Origin: Beroe forskalii
Lineage: Eukaryota > Ctenophora > Nuda > Beroida > Beroidae
NCBI GenBank assembly: GCA_011033025.1
Contig: WFMF01000063.1
Location: 616,953 to 680,952 of the forward strand
Length of the DNA stretch: 64,000 nucleotides
Reading direction: 5' to 3'
Part shown: in pieces, positions 13,585 through 45,585 of the stretch
Numbering within the stretch: position 1 is the first letter of the stretch
Layout of the letters: every line of letters starts with the position of its first letter
Notes under the pieces: generated by a model
Told to the model about the DNA's origin: nothing
Databases searched by the model: none
The model's input: the letters and a program-made list of their open reading frames with translations, nothing else
Translations under genes and position numbers: made by a program

Positions 13585-13686
13585 ATGCCTCCCCGGGCTG
13601 CTGTACTGGGTGGGAATGAGAACAAGTTACTGGAGGTCCTCTCCCAGAACCCTGAGGGGTGCACTGACAAGTTACTCCAGCAAAAG
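13585..13686 (+). CDS. POLR3F: POLR3F exon 1
   Basis: 34 codons starting MPPRAAVLGG and ending LLQQK before donor GTAAGC; phase 0. This is the first helices of winged helix 1. The ATG is the first in frame after the pyrimidine-rich 5' UTR. The N-terminus is shorter than in vertebrates. Confidence 0.85.
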
Positions 13687-16600
13687 GTAAGCTCCTCTCA
13701 CCAACAATGGGGTGACGTCAACAACTTGCCACTTTGAGCAATGATAATGACGTCATCTCAACCCACTATCATTCGTGAAGAGTGCGCACTGCGCGCATAT
13801 CATTATCATATCGGTACAGACCAGTAGCATTTTTTGGAAAATATAATAAGAGTATACTTATATTATAAGGTGTTCTTCAGAAATTTGCATTTTGCAAGAT
13901 CCTGTGGTGTACTGGTGAAGTCCTGCTATGTTCGGACGTTGACATCAGTTCACCCTCCAACCAATTTGTTTGTAAGATTATTTAAAGCTGCAAACATGAC
14001 ATCCAGCGTGTCATCAGGTCATCTAGATCTGCCATCTAACCATTATTTTGATAATTGATTTGCTGGCATCGGTCGTCCACGAAGTTTCACTTAAGCCGCG
14101 TGTTTGCAACCAACATTTTGTTACAGCGTTTGACAGATCGTTGTCACGCTCATTTTTTACGTCAGCAACCCCAAACCTTAATGACACACCCCCATGGCCA
14201 TTGTTGGTATTGATTTCATGATGTCAAGAGTTATAATGAAGCATCCGACTCGCGTGAAGTGCTCTGAGGAACATTCTTTTTGATTCAAAAAAGTGCATAG
14301 CAGTATTATTATAATTGATGAGTAATTTATTAATTCTCTTTTGACTCAATGGTACAGATACAAATGTAAACGATGTGTTTCTTTGATTGTATAAAGTAGT
14401 GTTGTAAAGTTTAAACTTTACAACACTACTTTATACAATCAAATTTGAGAATGAAAGAGGTCGTAGAACGACGAAATTGATTGTCATTAAAGAACCACAT
14501 CGTTTACATTTGTATCTGTACCATTGAGTCAAAAGAGAATTAATAAATTACTCATCAATTGTAATCATGCGACTCTTATTCAACGACCCGATCCGTGAAA
14601 TCAGTATTATTATAGTTCACTATAAATAATGAACAAATGTTAAGGAATTGAATACCTTTTTCATCAGCTTATCATTCCGTCATAATCTCTGAATTTTTCA
14701 GGCGAAGTTAGAAAAATCAGCCCTGGTAGCATCAATCAACAAGCTTCTGAAACTTGGGAGACTCGAAATCAAATCTCAGGTGAATATCAGTTATCATTGT
14801 ATTTTATTAAAACTTTAACTCGTTGCAGTTTTTAATAACTTAATTATATGCAATTTTTAAGCAATCAGATAAAGAATCTTATGACTTATGAGTACATGAA
14901 CAGTCCTGACGGTAAAAAGATAGTCATGTCAGGTTGGAGAGCAGTCGGTATTTCCAACGCCATAGGAGACTCAAGAGACACCTCAGTTGACTAACTCTAA
15001 GATCCTTTTGCCGGGCGGGAAGGAATTTGACAACTTAGTCATAAAGTGGTTTTGTTGAAATGTATTGTTGTAACCAAAGATTATCTCATACAAATCAATT
15101 ATAGCTTAGTTGCTCGTTTGAGAAAAATTGTCTGGCGTCTGCCATGAATATTCCCATTCTATGGAGCTCTAAAAGTTTGTTAAGTTATTTCCGGACTGGA
15201 AAAAGTTTCTTTATTAAAGAATTAGATTTTGGCCATAGAAAATTTTCTTAATTTCGTGCTTTATTATTTTCCTGACGCTTAAATTCATGCTAACTAAATT
15301 TTTATGTGATCGCATGACATGCGACGAATAGCCCGGTACTTTGCAAATCCGTCGATTTTAATCTAAGATTAACTTCCTCATGAAGTTAAATGCTTTGCTT
15401 AAATCTTCGTTTAAATTAAAATAACATAAACAATTTCAGGGATCGATCTTGATATATCAATTACGGGATGTAAAGTCTAACGAAGCAACTAAAGGGATGG
15501 GTCAGGAGGAAAAGATTGTGTTCAAAATAATCGAAGAGGCTGGAAATAAAGGTGCGCTGTCTTCCGTTAGAAAAGCAATCATTTTTGAACGCTAACGATG
15601 ACAGTTCGAACTGCAGTTCATGTGTCTTTCGTGTGCGCGGCGTACTGCAGACATGTTGTTTCTATGTCTATACGCTGCGCAAACTTACGCCGTGCACACA
15701 AGACGCGCACAGTGCAGTTTGAACTTTGAACTGCCCCAAAATAATTATCAAAAGTGTATTTAAACTGTTGTCATGACCTACAAACTGCACCCTACTCTCA
15801 ATACTTCCTCGCCATTTCTGGCGGCAGTGCCCTGACTCCTCACCATTGATGGTACTAAATATTATTTAGTACCATCAATGGTGAGGAGTCAGGGCACTGC
15901 AAGAATTTGTCACCCACCGTTTAAAAGTCCGTGATGCCACCAGCCTTGTCAAGGCCACATCAGTCTGTTATCAGCTCTGCTGTCTTTCCACCACTTCGAT
16001 TCACCAGCTTCACTCTTCCAAACCAATGAACCAAATCAGCCGCATGGTTGGGGTCATCGGAGCCCTGACCCACACTGCTTCACTTGTGCGCACAAGTTGA
16101 GGGAACAGTGTCACAGCCGCATGCATCTCAGGATCGTGATGCTATATACAAATAATTTAACTTCGCAACAAATCTTTGCGAGGGCGAATCCTATATTGCT
16201 TTGCAAACCAATTCGATGTCTTTGGTCTTGAAACAACTGTTTCACTGCACTCAGTTTCATGTCAGTCCCCATGCCAGCTGTCATAGTTTCTCAGTGGAAC
16301 AATGTCATAATGAAGCACCTAAAAATGGGTAGTGTCCCGGCCAACTGGGTTGTCATTCCTGACAACACCTCAGCATAAGATCACTCCCAGGAAATGTGCA
16401 CGGATACACAAATCCTTCATTAACTCCAGAGATAGGTACGGAAGGATAAAGGGACTATCATGTACTGTGCATCCTTGCACTCATCCACTGGTTTTGGTGC
16501 CACTGTGACTTGGTGCCGTCCATTCCAGCGTTTTTCCCACAGATCAATATGAAGTGTGAACAATGGATGGCGGTTCTGGATATTGCCTATGTAAGTTTCC

Positions 16601-19600
16601 GGCCATATGTTTCACTCATTCTGAGTTTTCGCAATACAGCAGCTGTTCTCTTAGAGACAAATCCTCTGGCCCCAGCTTCAATTGTAAATTACGGACAGTT
16701 TACTCCAACCTACTTTTCAGTGCACAAATATTTCCCACCGCACAACAAGATCACATTGCAGTTCCTGCATTATTATGAGATCATTTTAATCTACAAATCA
16801 ATCATTTTAAGATCAATCAAATATTCGAATATCGCAATATTTTTCGAAAACAGTACGTCTCCCCTCATCAGGTATTTGGGTGAAAGAGATTAGAACGCGT
16901 TCCAACCTCCAACTCACGCAACTGAACAAGGTATTGAAGAGCCTGGAGGGTAAGAAGAGCATCAGATCAGTTAAGCCGGTTAACGACAGCAAGAAGAAGA
17001 TCTACATGGTGTACGATCTGAAGCCGGACAGTTCGCTGACGGGCGGTGCTTGGTACGGGGAGAACGACTTCGAGACCGAGTTCGTGGACATCCTCGGCCG
17101 GCAGACGCTCACCTTCCTTCAGGTATACTACGATTCAAATTTCTGATTTACCTCTTGTTGGCAACAAATTAATGAAAAACCGAAATTTTTCAGAGAAATT
17201 TCGCCCCTCACAGCAAACTATTGTGATAATTAGCCTCGTTTTATAACAATTTACAACATGATGTTTTGAGTGACTCTAGATGTAGAAGGGCTTAGGAACC
17301 GGTGCTCTTTCAGCATCTTTTAACCTACGCCCTACTCCCAGTTTCTACCTCCATTATAGTACCTACTCCTTCTTAGCTTCTTGACGTAGCCTGCATTTGC
17401 ATATACCCTGAAAACGTCCCTTGCGAAGTTTCAAATTTTGAGAAAATACCCATACATAGCTGCTTAGGCTTAATTTAACTGTCAACTGTGAATATCTGCA
17501 TACCCTTGAAATATTATGTCGCATACCCTGATCTCATACCCAGGGTACTTTACTGCTTCTTGTTTTCAGAGGCAGCGGTCCCACGCAGAGGTACAGCACG
17601 CTGACCCAGCATCAGCTCAGAGACACATGATGTGCGATATCAAGCAGGTCAAGCACTTCATCAGCCAACTGGGCATCAGCAAGGTGGGTAAGGATACTTC
17701 ATCAGCCAACTGGGCATCAGCAAGGTGGGTAAGGATACTTCATCAGCCAACTGGGCATCAGCAAGGTGGGTAAGGATACTTCATCAGCCAACTGGGCATC
17801 AGCAAGGTGAGTAAGGACACTTCATCAGCCAACTGGGCATCAGCAAGGTGAGTAAGGATACTTCATCAGCCAACTGGGCATCAGCAAGGTGAGTAAGGAT
17901 ACTTCATCAGCCAACTGGGCATCAGCAAGGTGAGTAAGGACACTTTATCAGCCAACTGGGCATCAGCAAGGTGAGTAAGGATACTTCATCAGCCAACTGG
18001 GCATCAGCAAGGTGAGTAAGGATACTTTATCAGCCAACTGGGCATCAGCAAGGTGAGTAAGGATACTTCATCAGCCAACTGGGCATCAGCAAGGTGAGTA
18101 AGGACACTTTATCAGCCAACTGGGCATCAGCAAGGTGAGTAAGGATACTTTATCAGCCAACTGGGCATCAGCAAGGTGGGTAAGGATACTTCATCAGCCA
18201 ACTGGGCATCAGCAAGGTGAGTAAGGATACTTCATCAGCCAACTGGGCATCAGCAAGGTGAGTAAGGATACTTCATCAGCCAACTGGGCATCAGCAAGGT
18301 GAGTAAGGATACTTCATCAGCCAACTGGGCATCAGCAAGGTGAGTAAGGATACTTTATCAGCCAACTGGGCATCAGCAAGGTGAGTAAAGGATACTTCAT
18401 CAGCCAACTGGGCATCAGCAAGGTGAGTAAGGACACTTTATCAGCCAACTGGGCATCAGCAAGGTGAGTAAGGATACTTTATCAGCCAACTGGGCATCAG
18501 CAAGGTGGGTAAGGATACTTTATCAGCCAACTGGGCATCAGCAAGGCGAGTAAGGATACTTTATCAGCCAACTGGGCATCAGCAAGGTGAGTAAGGATAC
18601 TTCATCAGCCAACTGGGCATCAGCAAGGTGAGTAAGGATACTTTATCAGCCAACTGGGCATCAGCAAGGTGAGTAAGGATACTTCATCAGCCAACTGGGC
18701 ATCAGCAAGGTGGGTAAGGATACTTTATCAGCCAACTGGGCATCAGCAAGGCGAGTAAGGATACTTTATCAGCCAACTGGGCATCAGCAAGGTGAGTAAG
18801 GATACTTTATCAGCCAACTGGGCATCAGCAAGGTGGGTAAGGATACTTTATCAGCCAACTGGGCATCAGCAAGGCGAGTAAGGATACTTTATCAGCCAAC
18901 TGGGCATCAGCAAGGTGATTAGGGATACTTTATCAGCCAACTGGGCATCAGCAAGGTGAGTTAGGATACTCCAGGAGGTCACATCCTCGCCCTATTAAGT
19001 AGTTAATGTCACATTCGGCGTCACCTCGTGTAATTATGATATCTACTTGCCAAAGACTGTTTAACATCAAGTAGGTGTCGCTTTGTTGCTATCTAGGTAT
19101 CTGGTATCATGGTCTAATGGCACATGACACTGGTATAATGGTTAAGGCGTGCAACTGTTAAATGCATCTGATGGATATAACAGCTGCTGTTGCAGAAATA
19201 AAAGTTGTCAACAATTGCAGATATTAGATTCATTCCTTGAAAATGTGAGGGTTACCGCAGGCCACACTGGATGTTTTCTTAACTTCTGAAATCTTAAGTG
19301 CCACAAGTAACTGCCAGATCGTATTTAGGTGATTTGTACCACTTCCGTATAACTGACTTATAGCTCAAGTTTTAATAAGGGAATCCATTGGATACTAATC
19401 ATTGGATTTGTTAAATTAATTTCCATAGTTTTCTGGTTTAGTAGTCAAGATCTTTAAAATGAAACAATGAAAGCAATTTGAAAATTAAGAATGCCTGTGC
19501 TGTTAGCAATAAAACGGGGTTGATGGATTACACAATCCCATATTTTAGATAGTCGATCTGCAATATCGACGAATAGTTATGAAATAGTTATCAGACTAAC

Positions 19601-20534
19601 TGCTAGTTTAACCTGAACTTGAAATTAACAGGTGGAACTGGAAGATGCTGAAGTGAAGCAGATTCTGGAGTCCCTGGTGTTTGACGGTCTGGTGTCTCGG
19701 ATACACACCTTAGGGGAGGGAGGGAAGAAGCAGACCTTCTACGGGGCTATCAAACACAAACCTCTCACCACCGGTAATGCGGGGACTCTTACGAAACACA
19801 ATATGATAACCCTTAACCTTACTCTACTGGGAGCGGCCAGACATAATATTTTGTATAGGATTTAAGATGACAAATGTAGAAGGTATCATTATGCACCTCC
19901 AAGGCATGTTTATGCTATGTATTCAAAAACCCTATAGGCACCAGGGTACCGTGTGCAATAAATTATTACACTATGAAAATTGCCGAAATCGGATTTATTA
20001 CGCACTGTAGGTCATAATAATTTATTATGTGCAGTAGAACAGTGCGTAACTATTTCGCACAGTTGACAAACTGTACCTTCAAATCTTAATTTAAAACATT
20101 TCCTTGTGTTTGAAAATATTGCCATTTTTCGAGTAAAGTCGGTGCATAATTCAGTTTAATAACTCGTAAAGACCTAAACTCAGCATTAAAACCTCGGCCT
20201 TCGGCCTCGGTTTTTCAATGCCATATTACACACTCGGGCCTTCGGCCCTCGTGTGTAATATGACGTTTAGTAATTTTTACTCGTTACTAAACCTTTCATT
20301 ATTGGTGTGCTCTGTGCTCTGCGCTTTAAAGGGACTGAATTTTATTGTTATTGTCTTATTTTCATAGGTCCTGTGCTATCCCACTGCCTAGAAGAATTCA
20401 AATTAATCATACTGTGTATTTCAGGTATCTCCCGAGTGCCGTGTGGAGTGTGTCCCATCATATCTCAGTGTATACCGGGAGGACTGGTGTCCCCTCAGAC
20501 CTGTACTTACATGAAGGAGTGGCTCAACTTCTGA
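13585..20534 (+). CDS. POLR3F: RNA polymerase III subunit RPC6 (seven-exon gene)
   Basis: Exons 13585-13686, 14702-14779, 15440-15551, 16872-17122, 17570-17683, 19632-19773 and 20425-20534 join in frame, with GT-AG borders, to about 302 codons (human RPC6: 316). RPC6 belongs to the RPC3-RPC6-RPC7 heterotrimer that opens promoters in Pol III initiation. Tandem winged-helix domains occupy the first two thirds; the block GGAWYGENDFETEFVD matches a strongly conserved RPC6 segment. The C-terminus has four cysteines (CGVCPIISQC, then QTC), the known iron-sulfur cluster ligands, and ends EWLNF, like the vertebrate protein. No disabling change is seen. Two minisatellites grew from its coding borders, in intron 5 and at the stop codon. 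Confidence 0.93.
14311..14562. mobile_element. MITE with 62-bp perfect internal palindrome
   Basis: In POLR3F intron 1. Outer inverted arms of about 65 bp (14311-14377 and 14494-14562, starting ATTAYAATTGATGAG) enclose a perfect 62-bp palindrome at 14382-14443 centred on GTTTAAAC. No coding capacity; target duplication not evident. Confidence 0.7.
14702..14779 (+). CDS. POLR3F: POLR3F exon 2
   Basis: 26 codons (AKLEKSALVASINKLLKLGR onward), phase 0 on both sides, acceptor TTTTTCAG, donor GTGAAT. It matches the INRLLSMGQL-type recognition helix region of the first winged helix. Confidence 0.9.
15440..15551 (+). CDS. POLR3F: POLR3F exon 3
   Basis: 112 bp, enters in phase 0 and leaves in phase 1. 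It encodes a strand/turn then QEEKIVFKIIEEAGNK, equivalent to the QEKLVYQIIEDAGNK linker of vertebrate RPC6 between winged helices. Confidence 0.92.
15785..16755 (-). mobile_element. 3' fragment of the R2-like retrotransposon
   Basis: In POLR3F intron 3, antisense to the gene. From about 16,755 leftward it matches the C-terminal coding end and the 3' UTR of the elements at 39.6-44.1 kb and 57.5-62.0 kb (for example the TGCACCCTACTC...TTCCTCGCCATTTCTGG tail). It is diverged and 5'-truncated, so it is an older insertion. It carries a 77-bp palindrome at 15824-15900 that the longer copies lack. Confidence 0.85.
15824..15900. repeat. 77-bp perfect palindrome
   Basis: 38-bp arms around a single central base at 15862. 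One arm corresponds to the retrotransposon 3' UTR block with CAGTGCCCTGACTCCT; the second arm is its inverted duplicate, replacing sequence present in the other copies. Confidence 0.9.
16872..17122 (+). CDS. POLR3F: POLR3F exon 4
   Basis: 251 bp completing a split Gly codon (G-IWVKEIRTRSNLQLTQ). The second winged helix follows, ending with the conserved GGAWYGENDFETEFVD block and LTFLQ. Acceptor ATCAG, donor GTATAC, exits in phase 0. This is the best-conserved exon and identifies the gene. Confidence 0.95.
17570..17683 (+). CDS. POLR3F: POLR3F exon 5
   Basis: 38 codons, phase 0, acceptor TGTTTTCAG, ending HFISQLGISK directly at donor GTGGGTAAG. The ending matches vertebrate YICELGISK. The last 27 bp of this exon plus the donor are the founder unit of the array that fills the start of intron 5. 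Confidence 0.92.
17657..18968. repeat. 41-bp minisatellite carrying exon end plus 5' splice site
   Basis: The unit is TTCATCAGCCAACTGGGCAT followed by CAGCAAG|GTGAGTAAGGATA. The first copy is the authentic end of POLR3F exon 5 with its donor. The AAG|GT junction lies at 17683 and at 18955, 31 periods of 41 bp later (one unit has an extra A), so there are 32 copies. Donor variants GTGGGT, GTGAGT, GCGAGT and GTGATT occur; most match U1 very well. 41 bp is not a multiple of 3, so retaining units would shift frame and meet a stop after three units. Confidence 0.95.
18969..19631. other. rest of POLR3F intron 5
   Basis: Unique AT-rich intronic sequence ending in acceptor AAATTAACAG. Nothing recognised. 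Confidence 0.5.
19632..19773 (+). CDS. POLR3F: POLR3F exon 6
   Basis: 142 bp, VELEDAEVKQILESLVFDGL onward, ending KHKPLTTG split by phase 1 at donor GTAATG. It corresponds to the third winged helix of RPC6 (VELSMEDIETILNTLIYDG in vertebrates). Confidence 0.92.
20425..20534 (+). CDS. POLR3F: POLR3F exon 7 (terminal, FeS cysteines)
   Basis: Completes Gly, then ISRVPCGVCPIISQC with two further Gly and QTC before YMKEWLNF and TGA at 20532-20534. The four cysteines match the iron-sulfur cluster ligands of RPC6. The last codons and stop are the first unit of the downstream array. Confidence 0.94.
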
Positions 20535-21030
20535 AGGACATCCTATAGAAAGGAGTGGCTCAACTTCTGAAGAACATTCTACAGGAAGGAGTGGCTCAAC
20601 TTCTGAAGTACATTCTACAGGAAGGAGTGGCTCAACTTCTGAAATACATTTAAAAGAGTGGCTCAACTTCTGAAGTACATTCTACATAAAGGAGTGGCTC
20701 AACTTCTGAAATACATCTTACATGAAAGAGTGGCTCAACTTCTGAAGTACATTCAAAGGAGTGGATCAACTTCTGAAGTACATCCTACAGAAAGGAGTGG
20801 CTCAACTTCTGAAGTACATCCTACAGAAAGGAGTGGCTCAACTTCTGAAGTACATTCTACATGAAGGAGTGGCTCAACTTCTGAAGTACATTGTACAGGA
20901 AGGAGTGGCTCAACTTCTGAAGTACATTCTACATGAAGGAGTGGCTCAACTTCTGAAGTACATCCTACAGGAAGGAGTGGCTCAACTTCTGAAGCACTAC
21001 CCTACAGAAAGGAGTGGCTCAACTCCGTCA
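20505..21030. repeat. 36-bp minisatellite founded on the POLR3F stop codon
   Basis: The unit AGGAGTGGCTCAACTTCTGA plus AGTACATTCTACA repeats every 36 bp, with two 31-bp units. The TGA occurs at 20532, 20568, 20604, 20640, 20671, 20707, 20743, 20774, 20810, 20846, 20882, 20918, 20954 and 20990: 14 copies, the first being the authentic POLR3F stop. 36 bp is in frame. Open frames across it in other phases are artefacts of periodicity. Confidence 0.95.
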
Positions 21031-21833: not shown

Positions 21834-22005
21834 ATGGCTCATGCTGATGACTACGATGTAAGTGACTACATCTTCAAAGTTCTGTTACTGGGAGATAAGG
21901 GGGTGGGGAAGAGCTCCATAGCTCGGCGTTATGTCGAGGACCGCTTTGAGACGTGGCCCACTACAGTCCACGTGGAGTACGGAGCTGTGACCAGGAACGT
22001 TAGAG
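21834..22005 (+). CDS. Rab-like exon 1
   Basis: 57 codons plus one base. Starts MAHADDYDVSDYIFKVLLLG, contains the P-loop, and ends AACGTTAGAG before donor GTGAGG; phase 1. The last bases and donor are copied three more times in intron 1. Confidence 0.88.
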
Positions 22006-25000
22006 GTGAGGGAACAAACTGAATATTAGTGTATGTGTGTTTGTACGTTAGAGGTGAGGGAACAGACGACTACAATGCGTGTCTGTGTAGTGTGTAGTGA
22101 AGTAGTTTGTGTTATTAGGTGAGGACTGAGGATTGTCTGAGTTAGGAAGAGAACGTACGGTTGAGGTGAGGGAACAGACGACTTGAGAATGCGTGTCTGA
22201 TTGTTTGTACCGTAGAGGTGAGGTGAGGGTAAAAGTCTGCCCCTTGTATCTACTATCTCCAAAATCCGAAAGTAAAGTGCAATATGATGTAAACTAGCAT
22301 GATCGGTATTGGCTCTGCACATCGTATTTAACTGTTTGAAAAGAGATCAGTATGATTAGTAATCAGGAACCAACAGTTTGAGCTACACATGTTTCAGGAA
22401 AGCAAGTGAAGCTACAGATCACATTATATGTTATCCAGGAAAGCAAGTGAAGCTACAGATCTGGGACACGGCTGGTGAAGAGAAGTACCACTGTCTAACG
22501 AGCACCTACTACCGGAATACTCACGGAGTCATGCTGGTATTCGATACCAACAGCCCAGAGACTCTGGAACACGTTTCTAATACATGGATCAACCAGGTGC
22601 GTCAGAGTTTAGTGCTCATCTTCCTCTAATGAGATCCAAATAAATTAGATGTACTTAATTCCTCATGATTTCGAGCGCAGTTGTCTCCAGTTTTTTGCTG
22701 TTTGCCGTCCTCAGACCAGAAATATAGATATTTTGAATATTGGCTAATTTAACATATAAGTCGTGCAACATCATATGTGATTGATTTCGTTGATAAAGCT
22801 GATAGTTATGGAGGGAAACTACAGCGCTTGTCAAAGATCGTGAGAAAACGAGAGATTCATGTTTTTGGTGCAGCACACTTTTCATAAAACATTCTTCCAA
22901 TATCAGATGCTCTGACTGGCAGTATCAAATGCTGCCTAGTTGTCAAGATAGTCGATAGATAATTGGATGTATCGATGTGTCGATGAGAGTTCTACTTCCA
23001 GTTGATGTGAAGATATAAAATGATCATATTTTGTAAGCGTGGTTCCATTCCGTGGAACTGACAGATCAAATCATACTTGAAGTCACAGTGGAAGTGACTT
23101 GATCTTTCAGTCACATCTTCAGGGACTTCGAGTTCTTAGACGCTCTCCGATGTAGAATTTAAATCTAAATATCATTAGAGTGGTGTCGGTACGCGGATCC
23201 TTTATCTCAGCCGATACCAGTGGTGTTTGTAAAAAGCTACATTTTATGACCCCGGGTAATAACCCTAAATAGCTGACCTGGGTGCTTGGTGTGGTACTGC
23301 TTGAAGTGTATGTGACTTCGAGTGTGAGTCGGGTGCTGGGGATATACATTGTGATGAGATTAAAAAATGCGGGGTATAAAAAAGGTGAAAATGCGGCCAT
23401 TTAAATTCAAATCTAGATGATTTGAACCGAATGAAATCGTACCCAGGCTTGAGACTATCATACGCTTTGATTATAATATGTCAACTTTATCCCTTGTGTC
23501 AACTACTGTGCTCAGCGTATTACTCCATCTTTTTAAAATCGATATTGGACGGGATTATATCAATTTTGTAATATAGATATATCCTAGATTTATCCCTTTG
23601 ATATTATAAATTTAGCACCACTTTCGACATGACAGGTGATGACGAAGGCGCCTGAAGACGTATCTCTTGTTCTGATCGGTAGTAAATGTGACGTCAGCAG
23701 TACGACAGATGGTGATACCACCAAATCCTTGGCTGTTGATGTCGATGAGATCAGGACCTTCTGCGGCCTTCACTGCATATCTTACTTCTCTACCAGTGCT
23801 AAGCTCAACACCAACATAGAACAGGTTTGGTTGGTATCTATTATAACTGGGGAGGGTGCGTCGCATGTGTTGTCTTCATGTCTCATTGACCATGGTAACT
23901 GAGACACAGTTACCATGGTGTATGAGACAGTCTCATGCACCATGGTAACTGTGTATCTTATGTGTCAGTCACCATGGTAACTGTGTATCTTATGTCTCAT
24001 TCATCATGGTAACTGTGTATCTTATGTCTCATTCACCATGGTAACTGTGTATCCTATGTCTCATTCACCATGGTAACTGTGTATCTTATGTCTCATTCAC
24101 CATGGTAACTGTGTATCTTACGTCTCATTCACCATGGTAACTGTGTATCTCATGTCTCATTCACCATGGTAACTGTGTATCTCATGTCTCATTCACAATG
24201 GTAACTGTGTATCTTACGTCTCATTCACCATTGTAACTGTGTATCCTATGTCTCATTCACCATGGTAACTGTGTATCTTATGTCTCATTCACCATGGTAA
24301 CTGTGTATCTTATGTCTCATTCATAGTTGCCAATTTGCCCTTCTTTCGCAGGGTGCCCTGCTTTGCCCTGCTTTTTGCCCTGCTTTGCAAACCGAGCCCT
24401 GCTTTAGCAGGGCAAATCAGTCCGAAAGGTACCCATATTTTCATTGGAATAAGATAATCAAATCCATGAGTTGGAAAGATAAATGCACACTTGATTATTA
24501 TACCTGTAAGCTGATTCAGTGATTCATTAATCAATCATTGCTTCATTAGGATTACAAGCATCTTCATTGATAGCTTCATTGAATTTATAAAGTTGTGTAT
24601 TTTTTAAACAAGGAAATGTTGAAGATTCTTGAAGAGGTTGGTATCGGCACTATTTCAATTTTTAAAAGTACTTATATTGGTATGGAAGTTAGTAGAGTTA
24701 AAAAAGTATTCTTAGCAGGATGAGCATAAGTGTCTTTCAAAAACATACCTAATGCCCAAAGTGGTTGGTGTAACTGGTGGTTCAGAAAGGTACCCATAAT
24801 TGATAAGTGTAACTGGTGGTTCAGAAAGGTACTCATAATTGGTTGGCGTAACTGGTTGTTCAGAAAGGTACCCATAATTGGTTAGTGTAACTGGTGGTTC
24901 AGAAAGGTACCCATAATTGTTTAGTGTAACTGGTGGTTCAGAAAAGTACCCATGATTGCTTGGTGTAACTGGTTGTTCGAAAATTCATAATTGGTTGGCG

Positions 25001-31974: not shown

Positions 31975-33125
31975 GGTCGCCGACTCGGCGCCCGTCCGGC
32001 GCTGATCGGCGCCGGCTAGGCGCCGATCGGACGCCGATGGGAAATCGGCATCTTTTCATCGGCGCTGATCGGCGCCGATCAGCGCCGGCCAGCCCCCGAT
32101 CGGCGCTGTCGGCGCCGATCTGCCCCCGATCGGCGCCGATCAGCGCCGATAAAAACACCTGTATAATGGAAGCTGTCCGGTGCATTTTATTCCAGATTTG
32201 CCCGTGATTTTCCCATCGGCGCCGATGGAGAATTTTTCTGTATTTTTAAGCTTTCACAAGAAAATTGGATATCCGCGGGTTTTATCGCATTTGAACGATC
32301 AGGATCATGTTATGGTTTGCAATTGAATATGTTTTACATGTTTGTCGAAATTATGATTAGGGTTATGGTTAGGCCTTAGGGTTTGGGTTAGGGTTTGGGT
32401 TTGGGTTTGGGTTAGGGTTGGGGTTAGGGTCAGGGTTTGGGTTAGGGTTTGGGTTAGGGTTTGGGTTAGGGTTTTGGTTAGGGTCTTGGTTAGGGTTTGA
32501 TAAGGGTTAAATCAAACCCTAAAACCTTTACCCAAACCAAACCCAAACCCGAACCCTCGTCCCTCATCCAAACCAAACACAAACCCTAACCCAAACCCTA
32601 ACCCACCCTAACCACAACCCTAACCCAAACCCTAACCCAAACCCTAACCCTAACCCTAACCCAAACCCGAACCCTAACCATAACCCTAACCCTAATCCTA
32701 AACCATTAAACCAAGCCCTAACCCAATCCCAAACCCAAACCCTAACATGTAAAACATATGTAATTGCAAACCATCACATGATCCTGATCGTTCAAATGCG
32801 ATAAAACCCGCGGATATTCAATTTTCTAGTGAAAGCTTTAAAATTTAGAAAAATTCTCCATCGGCGCCGATCGGCGCCGATGGGAAAATCACGGGGAAAT
32901 CTGGAATAAAATGCACCGGACAGCTTCCCTTATACAGGTGTTTTTATCGGCGCCGATCGGGGGCAGATCGGCGCCGATCGGGGGCAGATCAGCGCCGATC
33001 GGGGGCTGATCGGCGCCGATCAGCGCCGACGACCGCCGATGAAAAGATGCCGATTTCCCATCGGCGCCTAGCCGGCGCTGATCGGCGCCGATCGGCGCCG
33101 AGTCGGCGATTTTGCAATGTGGTCA
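31975..33125. repeat. core palindrome: GGCGCCGATC arrays around telomere-like repeats
   Basis: GC-rich GGCGCCGATCGG clusters at 31,975-32,225 and 32,860-33,110 flank GGGTTTGGGTTAGGG runs at 32,350-32,510. These switch to the complementary CCCTAACCCAAACC at 32,515-32,750. Unique blocks such as CGATCAGGATCATG and its complement confirm inverted symmetry about 32,512. Confidence 0.85.
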
Positions 33126-35320: not shown

Positions 35321-37187
35321 CTGATGGATACTAATTCTTCAGTGGATACTAATGGATACTGAATGGTAACTAACGGCAATTTTTAGTATCCGTGGAAACT
35401 GGGTGGATACTAAATGGTAACTGATGGTAACTAATGGTAACTAGTGGATACTAATTTAGTATCCACGGTGGATACTATTTATTAAAAAATAGACTACTGT
35501 ATCCATTAGTATCCGTGGATACTAAATCTGACATTTAGTATCCACCATAGTATCCACCCAGTATCCACCCAGTTACCACGGATCCTACTGGTAACTAATG
35601 GATACTGATTTTCGCTGTGTTCCTTTGCTATTATTTTGCCAAACAGATGATTTCAACACTAGCTGTTGAACTGTAACAGTGTAGCATGGTTCTGCCAATC
35701 TTCAGATTGTACATCGTTGTACAGTGGTGTAACTTTATTATGCTGAACTTTAAGTGTACCATTTCATGTGTTCAAGGATCATTTTCATACCATGCCATTT
35801 CAGGGATGAAACTCGGCTTTTTGCTATGTTACAATTTTCTGCGCTGCAGCTAAAAGATTCCGACTGATTTGATTGAGTAATATTATGTACTCCACCGGGT
35901 TTAATTTCCGATTAAAGTTCATTCCTCAGACATATTTTGATGAGTCCAAACTAGTGGGGGTTCTTAGTACATAAAATTGGGAAGATACTTCAGTTGAGAG
36001 TACAGTTCAGATGAGGGTACCAAAATGCTCGTCAGGATGTCTACTTTCGATTTAGCCCCGGTCACAAGCCCAAACTCGATGTGATCGGGGTATAATTGGG
36101 CCTTAATTGACTCTAATTGGGCCGTTTCCGAAATTGGTCCTAATTTGGAGTCTATTGGCCAAAAAGCCCCAGTTTTGATGGTAAACCATGTACTTTCCAC
36201 GGGTTTTTGGGATTTTTCAAGGTCCCGATCGTCTCCGAACTCAGCAAGTACCTCTAATTGGGTATAATTGGCCTTAATTGGGCCAATTTCGAAATTGGCC
36301 AAAAAGCCCCAGTTTTGATGGTAAACCATGTACTTTCCACGGGTTTTCGGGGTTTTTCAAGGTCCCGATCGTCTCCAACCTCAGCAAGTACCTCTAATTG
36401 GGTATAATTGGCCTTAATTGGGCCAATTTCGATATTGGCCAAAAAGCCCCAGTTTTGATGGTAAACTATGTACTTTCCACGGGTTTTTGGGGTTTTTCAA
36501 GGTCCCGATCGTCTCTGACCTCAGCAAGTACCACAAATTGGGTATAATTGGCCTTAATTGGGCCAATTTTAAACTAAGGCATTCCTGGTCCATTGAGCCC
36601 CAGATTTTGAATTTAGTGAGTATTTTAACGTTCTATTGGCCACTTTATAGGTGGAAAGCGTCGAAAAATTCAGTAACTATCGCTGACACTCCAGGTCTGT
36701 TGACCCACTGATGTTTTCCTCGCAATCTATATATTCTCATTAATTATGATTTCTATTTTTCAAGTTATGGAAGTTTTTGGCGTAATTTAATGACGTTGAT
36801 TGGGCTGAAATAGTGAACCACTGATCATAGTTGGCTTAGCCCTAATTTTTTCGAAATTCTCCCTATTGGCTATTGAAGTAGTACCTACTATCATCAGTCA
36901 TCTGATCCATTTCAGAATTCAATCTCCTCACACATGAGTGAATAAAAATAGTTATATCACTGTCAGGTTTGTGGTAGGCAGGTTTTTAATATCAATGCAT
37001 GTAATCAAGCTCTACTCAGAGGGTAATTTCAATCAATATCCTAATGTGCTTTTTCAACACTTAAATTGTATTTTTTCTCAATTCAGTCGCTATCTACTTA
37101 CGTTTAAGATGTTGCTTCTTTTGTCAATTAATGTTAAGCGTGGTTAAGATATTAATTTGTTAGTCAACAATGCTTGTTGTTGCCGAT

Positions 37188-38770: not shown

Positions 38771-39618
38771 TTCCTGAAACCATCATGGTGGACTTCCGGC
38801 TGGCCTATATGATCTGCTTATCATTGGGTAATGAGGTTCAGGTTCACGACTAAGTCGTTGTTAATAGGAGATATTCCTTTAATTAGTGGTACTTAAATTG
38901 TATGTGCCGCCGAGTCCAAATTCAATTAATTCAATTTGGGATATTAAACGTTGCATATTCTTGCTTAATTCAAAATGCAGCGCTCAACGGATCAGGACTG
39001 CCTGCTTGATATTGACCCAATTAAGGCTAATTATACCCAATTAGTGGTATTTGCCAGTGTCGGAGACGATCGGGACCTTGAAAAACCCCAAAAACCCGTG
39101 GAAAGTACATAGTTTACCATCAAAACTGGGGCTTTTCGGCCAATTTCGAAATTGGCCCAATTAAGGCCAATTATATCCAATTTGTGGTACTTGCTGAGGT
39201 CAGAGACGATCGGGACCTTGAAAAACCCCAAAAACCCGTGGAAAGTACATAGTTTACCTTCAAAACTGGGGCTTTTGGGCCAATTTCGAAATTGGCCCAA
39301 TTAAGGCCAATTATACCCAATTAGAGGTACTTGCTGAGGTCGGAGACGATCGGGACCTTGAAAAACCCCGAAAACCCGTGGAAAGTACATGGTTTACCAT
39401 CAAAACTGGGGCTTTTTGGCCAATAGACTCCAAATTAGGACCAATTTCGGAAACGGCCCAATTAGAGTCAATTAAGGCCCAATTAGACCCCGATCACATC
39501 GAGTTTGGGCTTGTGACCGGGGCTAAATCGAAAGTAGACATCCTGAGGAGCATTTTGGTACCCTCATCTGAACTGTACTCTCAACTGAAGTATCTTTGTA
39601 CTAAGAACCCCCACTGTG

Positions 39619-44079: not shown

Positions 44080-45585
44080 GAGTTACATGTAATGTTATTA
44101 TGTCAGATGGCGAAATTATGAAATTATTGGTCGGATATTTCCTTCACCAATCTTTTGAGGGAATCCGATTTAACCAAACAACGTATTTTATAGCAGATGA
44201 TTTGATTAAACGTTCCGACATTACAACAACATGAATCTCGCCATGATGGAACGATTCCTTGAATCAGTGGACGCTGCCAAATACCATCATTATGGAACGC
44301 TTCCTTAAATCAGTGGACGCTGCCAAATACCATCGCCTACTTGGGTAAGTATCTCCTTGTGAGATAAGCGTATTAGTATGCTCATATGATACCGGAAACA
44401 TTCTGTAGAGCAGTGATACGGCCAATCAGAGCGTGAGTTAAATGTGTGCTTGAACTCTGATTGGGCATTACAATACCCACGATCAGCCAATACTCAGTGA
44501 GATGTTTTTAGGTCCCTATGTCTAATGTTTATAATCTAAAAGCGTATTCGCCGCCGATACTCCTAAAATAATAATAATATTTTTTGACGTTTTTTTGCGA
44601 TAGCGACGAAGCACAAGCAACGGACGCAAGCTTAAATTTCTCATTGAGGCTTTGGACACTGCGGTTCGAGGAATCAAATTATATGATAAAATTCACATGT
44701 TTCAAAGTACCATGTTTTTTTCATAATATTCCAATAAAAAGTCACATTCACATGATACAAAGTTTCAATATTTTTTTAATTATTTTAATAATAGCATTAA
44801 TTTCAGGATTTCAAGGCAAGTCTCATGACACTGACAGGAATCATGCCAAAAATGGCCGACTGAAAAAGTGAAATATGGTTAGTTTTTTCTCTTTGTCTAT
44901 CAATTTTAGGGATTTTAATTATCAGAGGAAAATAATAAGATTATGTTGAATTGAATTAAAACGAAAAATTTATCAGCTCACATTTGGCTCGGTGAGCCCT
45001 ACATAATTATCACACCAGCTCTAGCATTGAATATAAATAACCCATACGTGCATTTTGTGGAGAGTGATGCAATTTTAATCTTCAGAAATTCCATACGATT
45101 GCTACATGATGCTACTGTACATAATTGATTATGCAATTAATTAGATAATAAGGTAGAAATCGCAGGATGTCGATAAACTCACTACCATGTTGAATCCCTT
45201 ATCAGTTAATTTTCACTCAGTGGCTTATCTCTCGATTTCATTGTGTTGCATTTTCATCTGACTTGTTTATTTGGTGTTGGGTTTGGCCGATTTGACCAGT
45301 CTGTCTACATAGTAGCACTAACATGATGTGATGAATCCGGTATTAAGTTTCTTCTTTCTTCTCTGTACGGCAATTTACCACAATGGGAATCCATCAAGAC
45401 ATTTCAAGCACAGTTGATAAGCCACAATTTTCTACTATTTCCAGCCTTATTCTTCCCTTCATTTTATCTTTCCAATTCTTTTTTAATTCATACTTTTGTA
45501 CTCTTCCCCCCCTGATCCAGGCCATGGAATGTCCATCAATCTAAAATTCGCTACTCTTCAATGAAATCGCTAACATTCTCCCAGA
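44080..45585. other. intergenic; possible small duplicated exon
   Basis: Mostly AT-rich. At 44246-44291 and 44292-44337 a 46-bp block (TGGAACGMTTCCTTRAATCA, then GTGGACGCTGCCAAATAC) is tandemly duplicated. The second copy reads MERFLKSVDAAKYHRLL and runs into a donor-like GTAAGT at 44345. It looks like a short first exon (helix 1 of a SAM-type domain is one possibility) but no following exon was found. Confidence 0.35.

Follow-up and report, generated by a model that had tools for sequence, protein, structure and literature searches.

A 32-copy minisatellite carrying the exon 5 splice donor of POLR3F in Beroe forskalii, and splice-site ladders at other genes of the same genome

The 5' splice site of POLR3F intron 5 in Beroe forskalii lies in a 41-bp minisatellite of 32 copies, each of which contains a 5' splice site. 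From sequence comparison, the founder of the repeat is the end of exon 5 joined to the start of intron 5. We consider it probable that a microhomology-bounded duplication turned this existing junction into a minisatellite, and that the array is tolerated because copy 1 is the one used, by exon definition. Comparable series of repeated donors or acceptors (ladders) stand at unrelated genes of the same genome (kinesin, chaperonin and Ras-like). Positions refer to the window, that is, the whole 64,000-nucleotide stretch that was analysed, and are collected in Table 1.

The POLR3F array and its founder

The POLR3F model has 7 exons, with GT-AG at all boundaries, and a product of 302 aa that matches human RPC6 (E 3e-75) and the Pfam family RNA_pol_Rpc34 (PF05158; E 5e-72). 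The exon 5/6 junction falls within LGISK|VEL. Since the model protein aligns to human RPC6 without a gap through this junction, the founder was exonic, which answers a question raised in a preliminary description of this DNA; the same alignment and the exon model agree with its placing of the authentic exon 5 junction in copy 1.

Tandem repeats were called with TRF, which returned a period of 41, 32.1 copies and 96% matches, and direct segmentation gave 32 junctions, so the array reported earlier was recovered by both methods. Its unit joins the exon 5 end to the 5' splice site, as had been proposed, with an exon-derived part of 27 to 29 bp depending on the assignment of an ACT that is common to both breaks. 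Spacing is 41 bp in 30 of 31 intervals and 42 bp from copy 18 to copy 19; the regularity claimed before is thus exact in all intervals except this one. The junction reads AAG|GT in 29 of the 32 copies and AAG|GC in copies 22, 27 and 30, which corrects the number of further AAG|GT junctions behind copy 1 from 31 to 28, and the donor of copy 1 reads GTGGGTAAG where GTGAGTAAG had been given. By hexamer, there are 21 GTGAGT, 7 GTGGGT (copies 1-3, 13, 21, 26 and 29), 3 GCGAGT (copies 22, 27 and 30) and 1 weak GTGATT (copy 31). The length and identity of the array are far beyond chance. Its head-to-tail units of tens of bp and high identity place it among minisatellites, and its position across an exon end with a 5' splice site per unit gives it the structure seen in IFI6.

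An assembly artefact is very unlikely, either for the array itself or for its copy number. The array contains nine distinct unit types without periodicity in their order, a single 1-bp insertion, and last copies that have diverged; no series of four consecutive units is found twice; and ladders are present at several other loci. A DNA search placed the array at one position only in the 216-Mb assembly. In the Rpc34 family search, the only exon matches were two within this POLR3F gene, and neither search found a second allele of the array in the assembly.

Table 1. Features of the POLR3F and Ras-like genes in the window, and ladders from the genome survey (L numbers)
Feature	Position	Strand	Description	Basis
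POLR3F (RPC6) gene	13585..20534	+		exon model, human RPC6 match, PF05158
POLR3F coding exons 1-4	13585-13686, 14702-14779, 15440-15551, 16872-17122	+		exon model
POLR3F coding exons 5-7	17570-17683, 19632-19773, 20425-20534	+		exon model
POLR3F exon 5	17570..17683	+	114 nt, phase 0 on both sides; last 27-29 bp form the exon-derived part of copy 1	
41-bp minisatellite	17655..18970	+	32 copies, 5' splice site in each; copy 1 straddles exon 5 end	
Authentic donor of exon 5 (copy 1)	17684..17692	+	GTGGGTAAG	segmentation, exon model
POLR3F intron 5	17684..19631	+	1,948 nt; 676 nt if copies 2-32 are removed	
POLR3F second array	20514..21024	+	36-bp unit, 14 copies with full coding-derived core	TRF, sequence
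Ras-like gene, exon 1 end and donor repeated	21997..22226	+	five AG|GTGAGG sites	PF00071
Ras-like gene, exon 2 acceptor doubled	22386..22461	+	CAG|GAAAGCAAG	sequence, PF00071
L068, donor ladder (chaperonin)			TTACAG|GTTTGT, 3 copies	
L074, donor ladder			KQTK|GTAAGG, 43 bp, 2 copies	
L079, donor ladder			KLTRLLQ|GTTTAG, 28-36 bp, about 9 junctions; occupies most of its intron	
L063, acceptor ladder (chaperonin)			TTTCAG|AA, 31 bp, 4 copies	
L070, acceptor ladder			AACAG|GGG, at least 7 exact sites and 2 variants	
L081, acceptor ladder			CAG|GTGTTCACC, 58 bp, at least 4 exact sites	
L083, acceptor ladder			TTTCAG|GAGGTAAC, 39 bp, 10 copies	

Choice among the donors

The coding effect was computed for each donor, and only donor 1 preserves the protein. 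Donors 2-32 lead to a premature stop in every case (31/31, where 'usually' had been expected), with products of 240-252 aa and a distance of 117-1324 nt from the stop to the last exon junction downstream; an alternative choice that brings in a premature stop is one property of nonsense-mediated (poison) splicing control, which would also need the alternative isoform to be made and regulated. With U1, donors of the copy-1 type have a pairing energy of -9.4 kcal/mol, GTGAGT sites one of -10.2 and GCGAGT sites one of -5.8; the other five POLR3F donors range from -5.3 to -9.5 kcal/mol. As copy 1 pairs with U1 slightly less well than the 21 GTGAGT sites, a slightly weaker authentic donor, GTGGGT, is followed by strong decoys downstream. 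The four weakened donors (copies 22, 27, 30 and 31) are all distant from exon 5, and this carries no weight because three of the four share one change and may represent one event.

Under exon definition, the splice sites that are closest across the exon are preferred, according to a published minigene study (PMC9225289). In the minigenes described there, two identical donors 52 nt apart, with flanking introns of 365 nt, were resolved exclusively in favour of the upstream one; for acceptors, only a reduced upstream preference is reported in the same text, which also summarises an older intron-centred rule favouring the donor nearest the acceptor. With its 114 nt and introns of 447 and 1,948 nt on its two sides, POLR3F exon 5 fits the exon-definition setting. 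Of the 32 donors, the splicing machinery would then take the one at the shortest distance from the 3' splice site of exon 5; copy 1 would be spliced and copies 2-32 removed with intron 5. In the minigenes, as in the array, a single exon is followed by equal donors spaced by a few tens of nt, and we predict that the upstream donor wins at POLR3F as it does there, although the minigenes hold an engineered pair in human-type cells and POLR3F a natural ladder of 32 (PMC9225289). We infer copy-1 use and near-neutrality of the array. Among the three outcomes offered in the preliminary description (strong preference for the first donor, tolerated mis-splicing, or nonsense-mediated control), the first is the best supported, by extension from the minigene results of PMC9225289. 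The lower U1 pairing of copy 1 and the older intron-centred rule count against this explanation.

A different outcome would be frequent use of downstream donors followed by nonsense-mediated decay, with array length tuning the level of a Pol III subunit. The position of all 31 premature stops, ahead of the last junction, suits such a leaky ladder, as does the strength of most downstream donors: GTGAGT or GTGGGT occupies 28 of the 32 sites, in line with the near-consensus donors described before. We nevertheless regard it as unlikely, as the exon-defined minigenes with equal donors spliced the upstream one only (PMC9225289), and as similar ladders stand at kinesin, chaperonin and Ras-like genes. 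Their recurrence at unrelated genes, at about the rate of random duplication, makes a gene-specific function unnecessary.

Two further candidates were tried and rejected. Masking of the decoys by RNA structure was dropped because shuffled sequences fold at least as well as the first four copies (z +0.9), and recursive splicing at unit junctions because no pyrimidine tract lies ahead of AAG|GT.

Origin of the array and variation among its copies

The array is flanked by ACTTC ahead of copy 1 and by ACTCC behind copy 32. The shared ACT is as expected from a microhomology-bounded tandem duplication. In the proposed sequence of events, a tandem duplication bounded by 3 bp of microhomology would have copied the existing exon 5/intron 5 junction, and the duplicated pair would then have expanded to 32 copies as an ordinary minisatellite.

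The preliminary description also saw a fit to the model of Rogers-type intron gain, in which an AG|GT-containing tandem duplication of an exon segment makes new introns. Every unit does contain AAG|GT or AAG|GC, and introns are documented to arise by tandem duplication (PMC3443670). This origin of the array is nonetheless extremely improbable. Intron sequence already made up at least 12 of the 41 bp at the first copying; intron 5 has a single acceptor of its own (19631), in unique DNA that runs from the array end to that acceptor; no pyrimidine tract stands ahead of the AG at unit junctions; and a single unit would yield a 41-nt intron, which was judged too short. Judged by the make-up of the unit, strict intron gain at POLR3F is already refuted. 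Because the unit holds prior intron and the acceptor lies beyond the array, an old intron was lengthened (from 676 nt, its length with copies 2-32 taken out, to 1,948 nt) and none created. A case in potato (PMC4974935) is alike in being a short tandem duplication that copies splice signals; the POLR3F duplication differs in straddling an existing intron boundary and lengthening the intron, with no new intron indicated.

Plain neutrality of the duplicated junction does not predict one feature that POLR3F shows twice, namely an exon-derived part that varies less than the rest of the unit. In the 41-bp array, variable columns number 1 of 27 in the exon-derived part and 6 of 14 in the intron-derived part (Fisher's exact test, two-sided P 0.004), and the sole exon-part variant is silent (TTC/TTT). 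The second POLR3F array is founded on the last codons and stop of the gene (KEWLNF*) and extends into the 3' untranslated region; here variable columns number 1 of 21 in the coding-derived part and 8 of 15 in the rest (one-sided P 0.0015). Ten other arrays in the window supplied 610 rotated blocks for comparison, none of them as extreme as either POLR3F array. A possible explanation is exchange with the functional exon, whereby any copy may become copy 1 when the array shrinks and damaged copies are weeded out. Several results speak against it. Without copies 1, 31 and 32, the split of the first array becomes 1/27 against 3/14 (P 0.11); rotation within each array is weaker (5/41 for the first, 2/36 for the second); and the exon-derived part of L079 carries several changes. 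In simulations with lethal changes in the coding copy, per-site ratios were 0.47-1.05 across ten filtered settings, compared with about 0.09 observed (0.86-1.30 in unfiltered settings), and the observed split was reached in 0 of 288 filtered runs; in many runs, the variable columns were too few for it to be attainable. We consider exchange an improbable explanation, and the near-invariance of the exon-derived part in both POLR3F arrays is kept as a lead.

Ladders at other genes and other repeats

A Ras-like GTPase gene (PF00071) neighbours POLR3F. At the end of its exon 1, the GT of the repeated AG|GTGAGG sites stands at 22006 (the authentic donor), 22054, 22119, 22166 and 22218; TRF called an array for the first two sites only (48 bp, 1.9 copies). 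Exon 2 of the same gene has two starts 41 bp apart, at 22398 and 22439, the second of which enters the conserved exon. At these two exons and in the second POLR3F array, the protein-preserving copy always adjoins the exon.

Ladders elsewhere in the genome were surveyed in two conserved, multi-exon families, chaperonin TCP-1 and kinesin, with stretches chosen by clusters of exon matches. The survey covered 28 stretches with 120 exon matches over 77,328 bp (kinesin: 19 stretches covering 79 of 120 matches; chaperonin: 9 stretches covering 41 of 45 matches). For kinase, 30 of 135 matches were scanned for repeats and, being mostly single-exon, were left out of the edge survey. Ladders were recognised by eye near TRF arrays at the ends of profile matches, which are inexact exon ends, and such a count would miss ladders under the TRF threshold. 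By this procedure, ladders were found at 7 of the 120 exon matches (three at donors and four at acceptors, with at most 10 copies), or at 6 of 114 without L068, which was chosen as the second copy of L063 after the acceptor ladder of L063 had been seen, its donor ladder being unforeseen.

On contig C558, one chaperonin gene is present twice in inverted orientation, as L063 and L068, whose longer aligned pieces are 86-98% identical. There are four acceptors at L063 and one at L068, and three donors at L068 and one at L063, so that the single-site state is seen directly in this pair. As the ladder of each copy corresponds to a single site in the other, the ladders are young, and the simplest reading of these alignments is that each is younger than the gene duplication.

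The placement of arrays was compared with that of the exon matches, after three matches that read through introns had been removed from the coding count. None of 42 arrays with a period of at least 15 lay inside clean exon matches, though these matches make up 28% of bases (P about 1e-6, with arrays treated as points; two separate scans list 30 and 13 arrays, one more in total, as the scanned strand differs). Ladders cover 7 of 240 exon edges, compared with 3.1 to 4.3 expected with random founder units. Exon interiors are protected from arrays, and exon edges are not visibly so. With edge coverage near the random expectation, no special mechanism is needed to place repeats at splice sites. From these results we infer that random tandem duplication and exon-proximal site choice account for the ladders.

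One point against the explanation by exon-proximal choice is that the introns holding the L063 and L079 ladders measure only about 240-300 nt; at such lengths, splicing by intron definition would favour the wrong site. By our analysis, a cross-exon proximity rule would pick the last acceptor of an acceptor ladder. A wider proposition, to which we give somewhat short of an even chance, is that ladders of donors and acceptors stand at several percent of conserved exons, with up to 32 near-identical sites, and that essential genes remain functional because the choice among sites is made by position (the one nearest across the exon) and not by strength. If it is true, the genome offers a direct measurement of the cross-exon proximity rule, as a natural experiment on a large scale. 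Minigenes with two sites are the usual means of studying site choice among equals. Conserved genes with natural ladders of 2 to 32 sites would allow the rule to be read from a single species' RNA, across loci that differ in the distance, number and strength of their sites and with at least one gene copy free of the ladder. The ladders also show that tandem duplication can multiply splice sites with no visible purging at exon edges, a point relevant to intron lengthening and to a possible start of alternative splicing.

Turri, Cuin and Porter reportedly described, in 1995 (Nucleic Acids Res 23:1854), a minisatellite in human IFI6 (6-16) that provides multiple splice donors, and the kind of structure found at POLR3F is already known from it. 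Both minisatellites lie at an exon end with a 5' splice site in each unit. The IFI6 unit is shorter and in frame; POLR3F has 32 copies of a 41-bp, frame-shifting unit whose downstream donors would always lead to a premature stop, and belongs to a genome with ladders at acceptors and other genes as well. What is new is the 32-donor scale, the frame-shifting unit, the existence of ladders at both kinds of splice site, and their recurrence across genes of one genome. No other natural donor array was recognised in the literature from titles and abstract openings, a scope that does not establish absence. In IFI6, two downstream repeat units act as donors and give three mRNAs, according to PMC4526556.

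Over the whole genome, the raw donor-ladder pattern gave 718 forward and 734 reverse overlapping hits, compared with 2090 and 2329 for the pattern read backwards; enrichment of the raw pattern was rejected, and the reason is that the genome is full of minisatellites. Two candidate ladders share a contig (G000:C77:417549-420317 and 453471-455197) and lie on its opposite strands; both are long arrays with a unit of about 37 bp, and most of the listed units carry AGGTGAGT. At L089 (G000:C291:170900-175100), the match list shows two kinesin exon fragments repeating about every 800 bp, by which we take this locus to be a larger tandem duplication containing exons. The mitochondrial contig of the assembly (C1134, 13,339 bp) carries a diverged COX1 that requires TGA to be read as Trp; over 2,844 bases of it, GC content is 20% and ARAGORN, run with the bacterial code, detected no tRNA, features that would suit a comb jelly.

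Other repeats of the window were recorded in passing. At 44242-44334, a 46-bp unit stands twice, its second copy reading MERFLKSVDAAKYHRLL as far as a GTAAGT donor; this may be a tandem duplication of a start-codon exon. At 32357-32746, TTAGGG-like and then CCCTAA-like repeats lie inside the contig beside CGATCGGCGCC repeats and form an interstitial head-to-head telomere-like block. A 140-bp unit is present in about three copies at each of 36154-36569 and 39011-39424, in opposite orientations, and the two blocks look like the ends of one mobile element.
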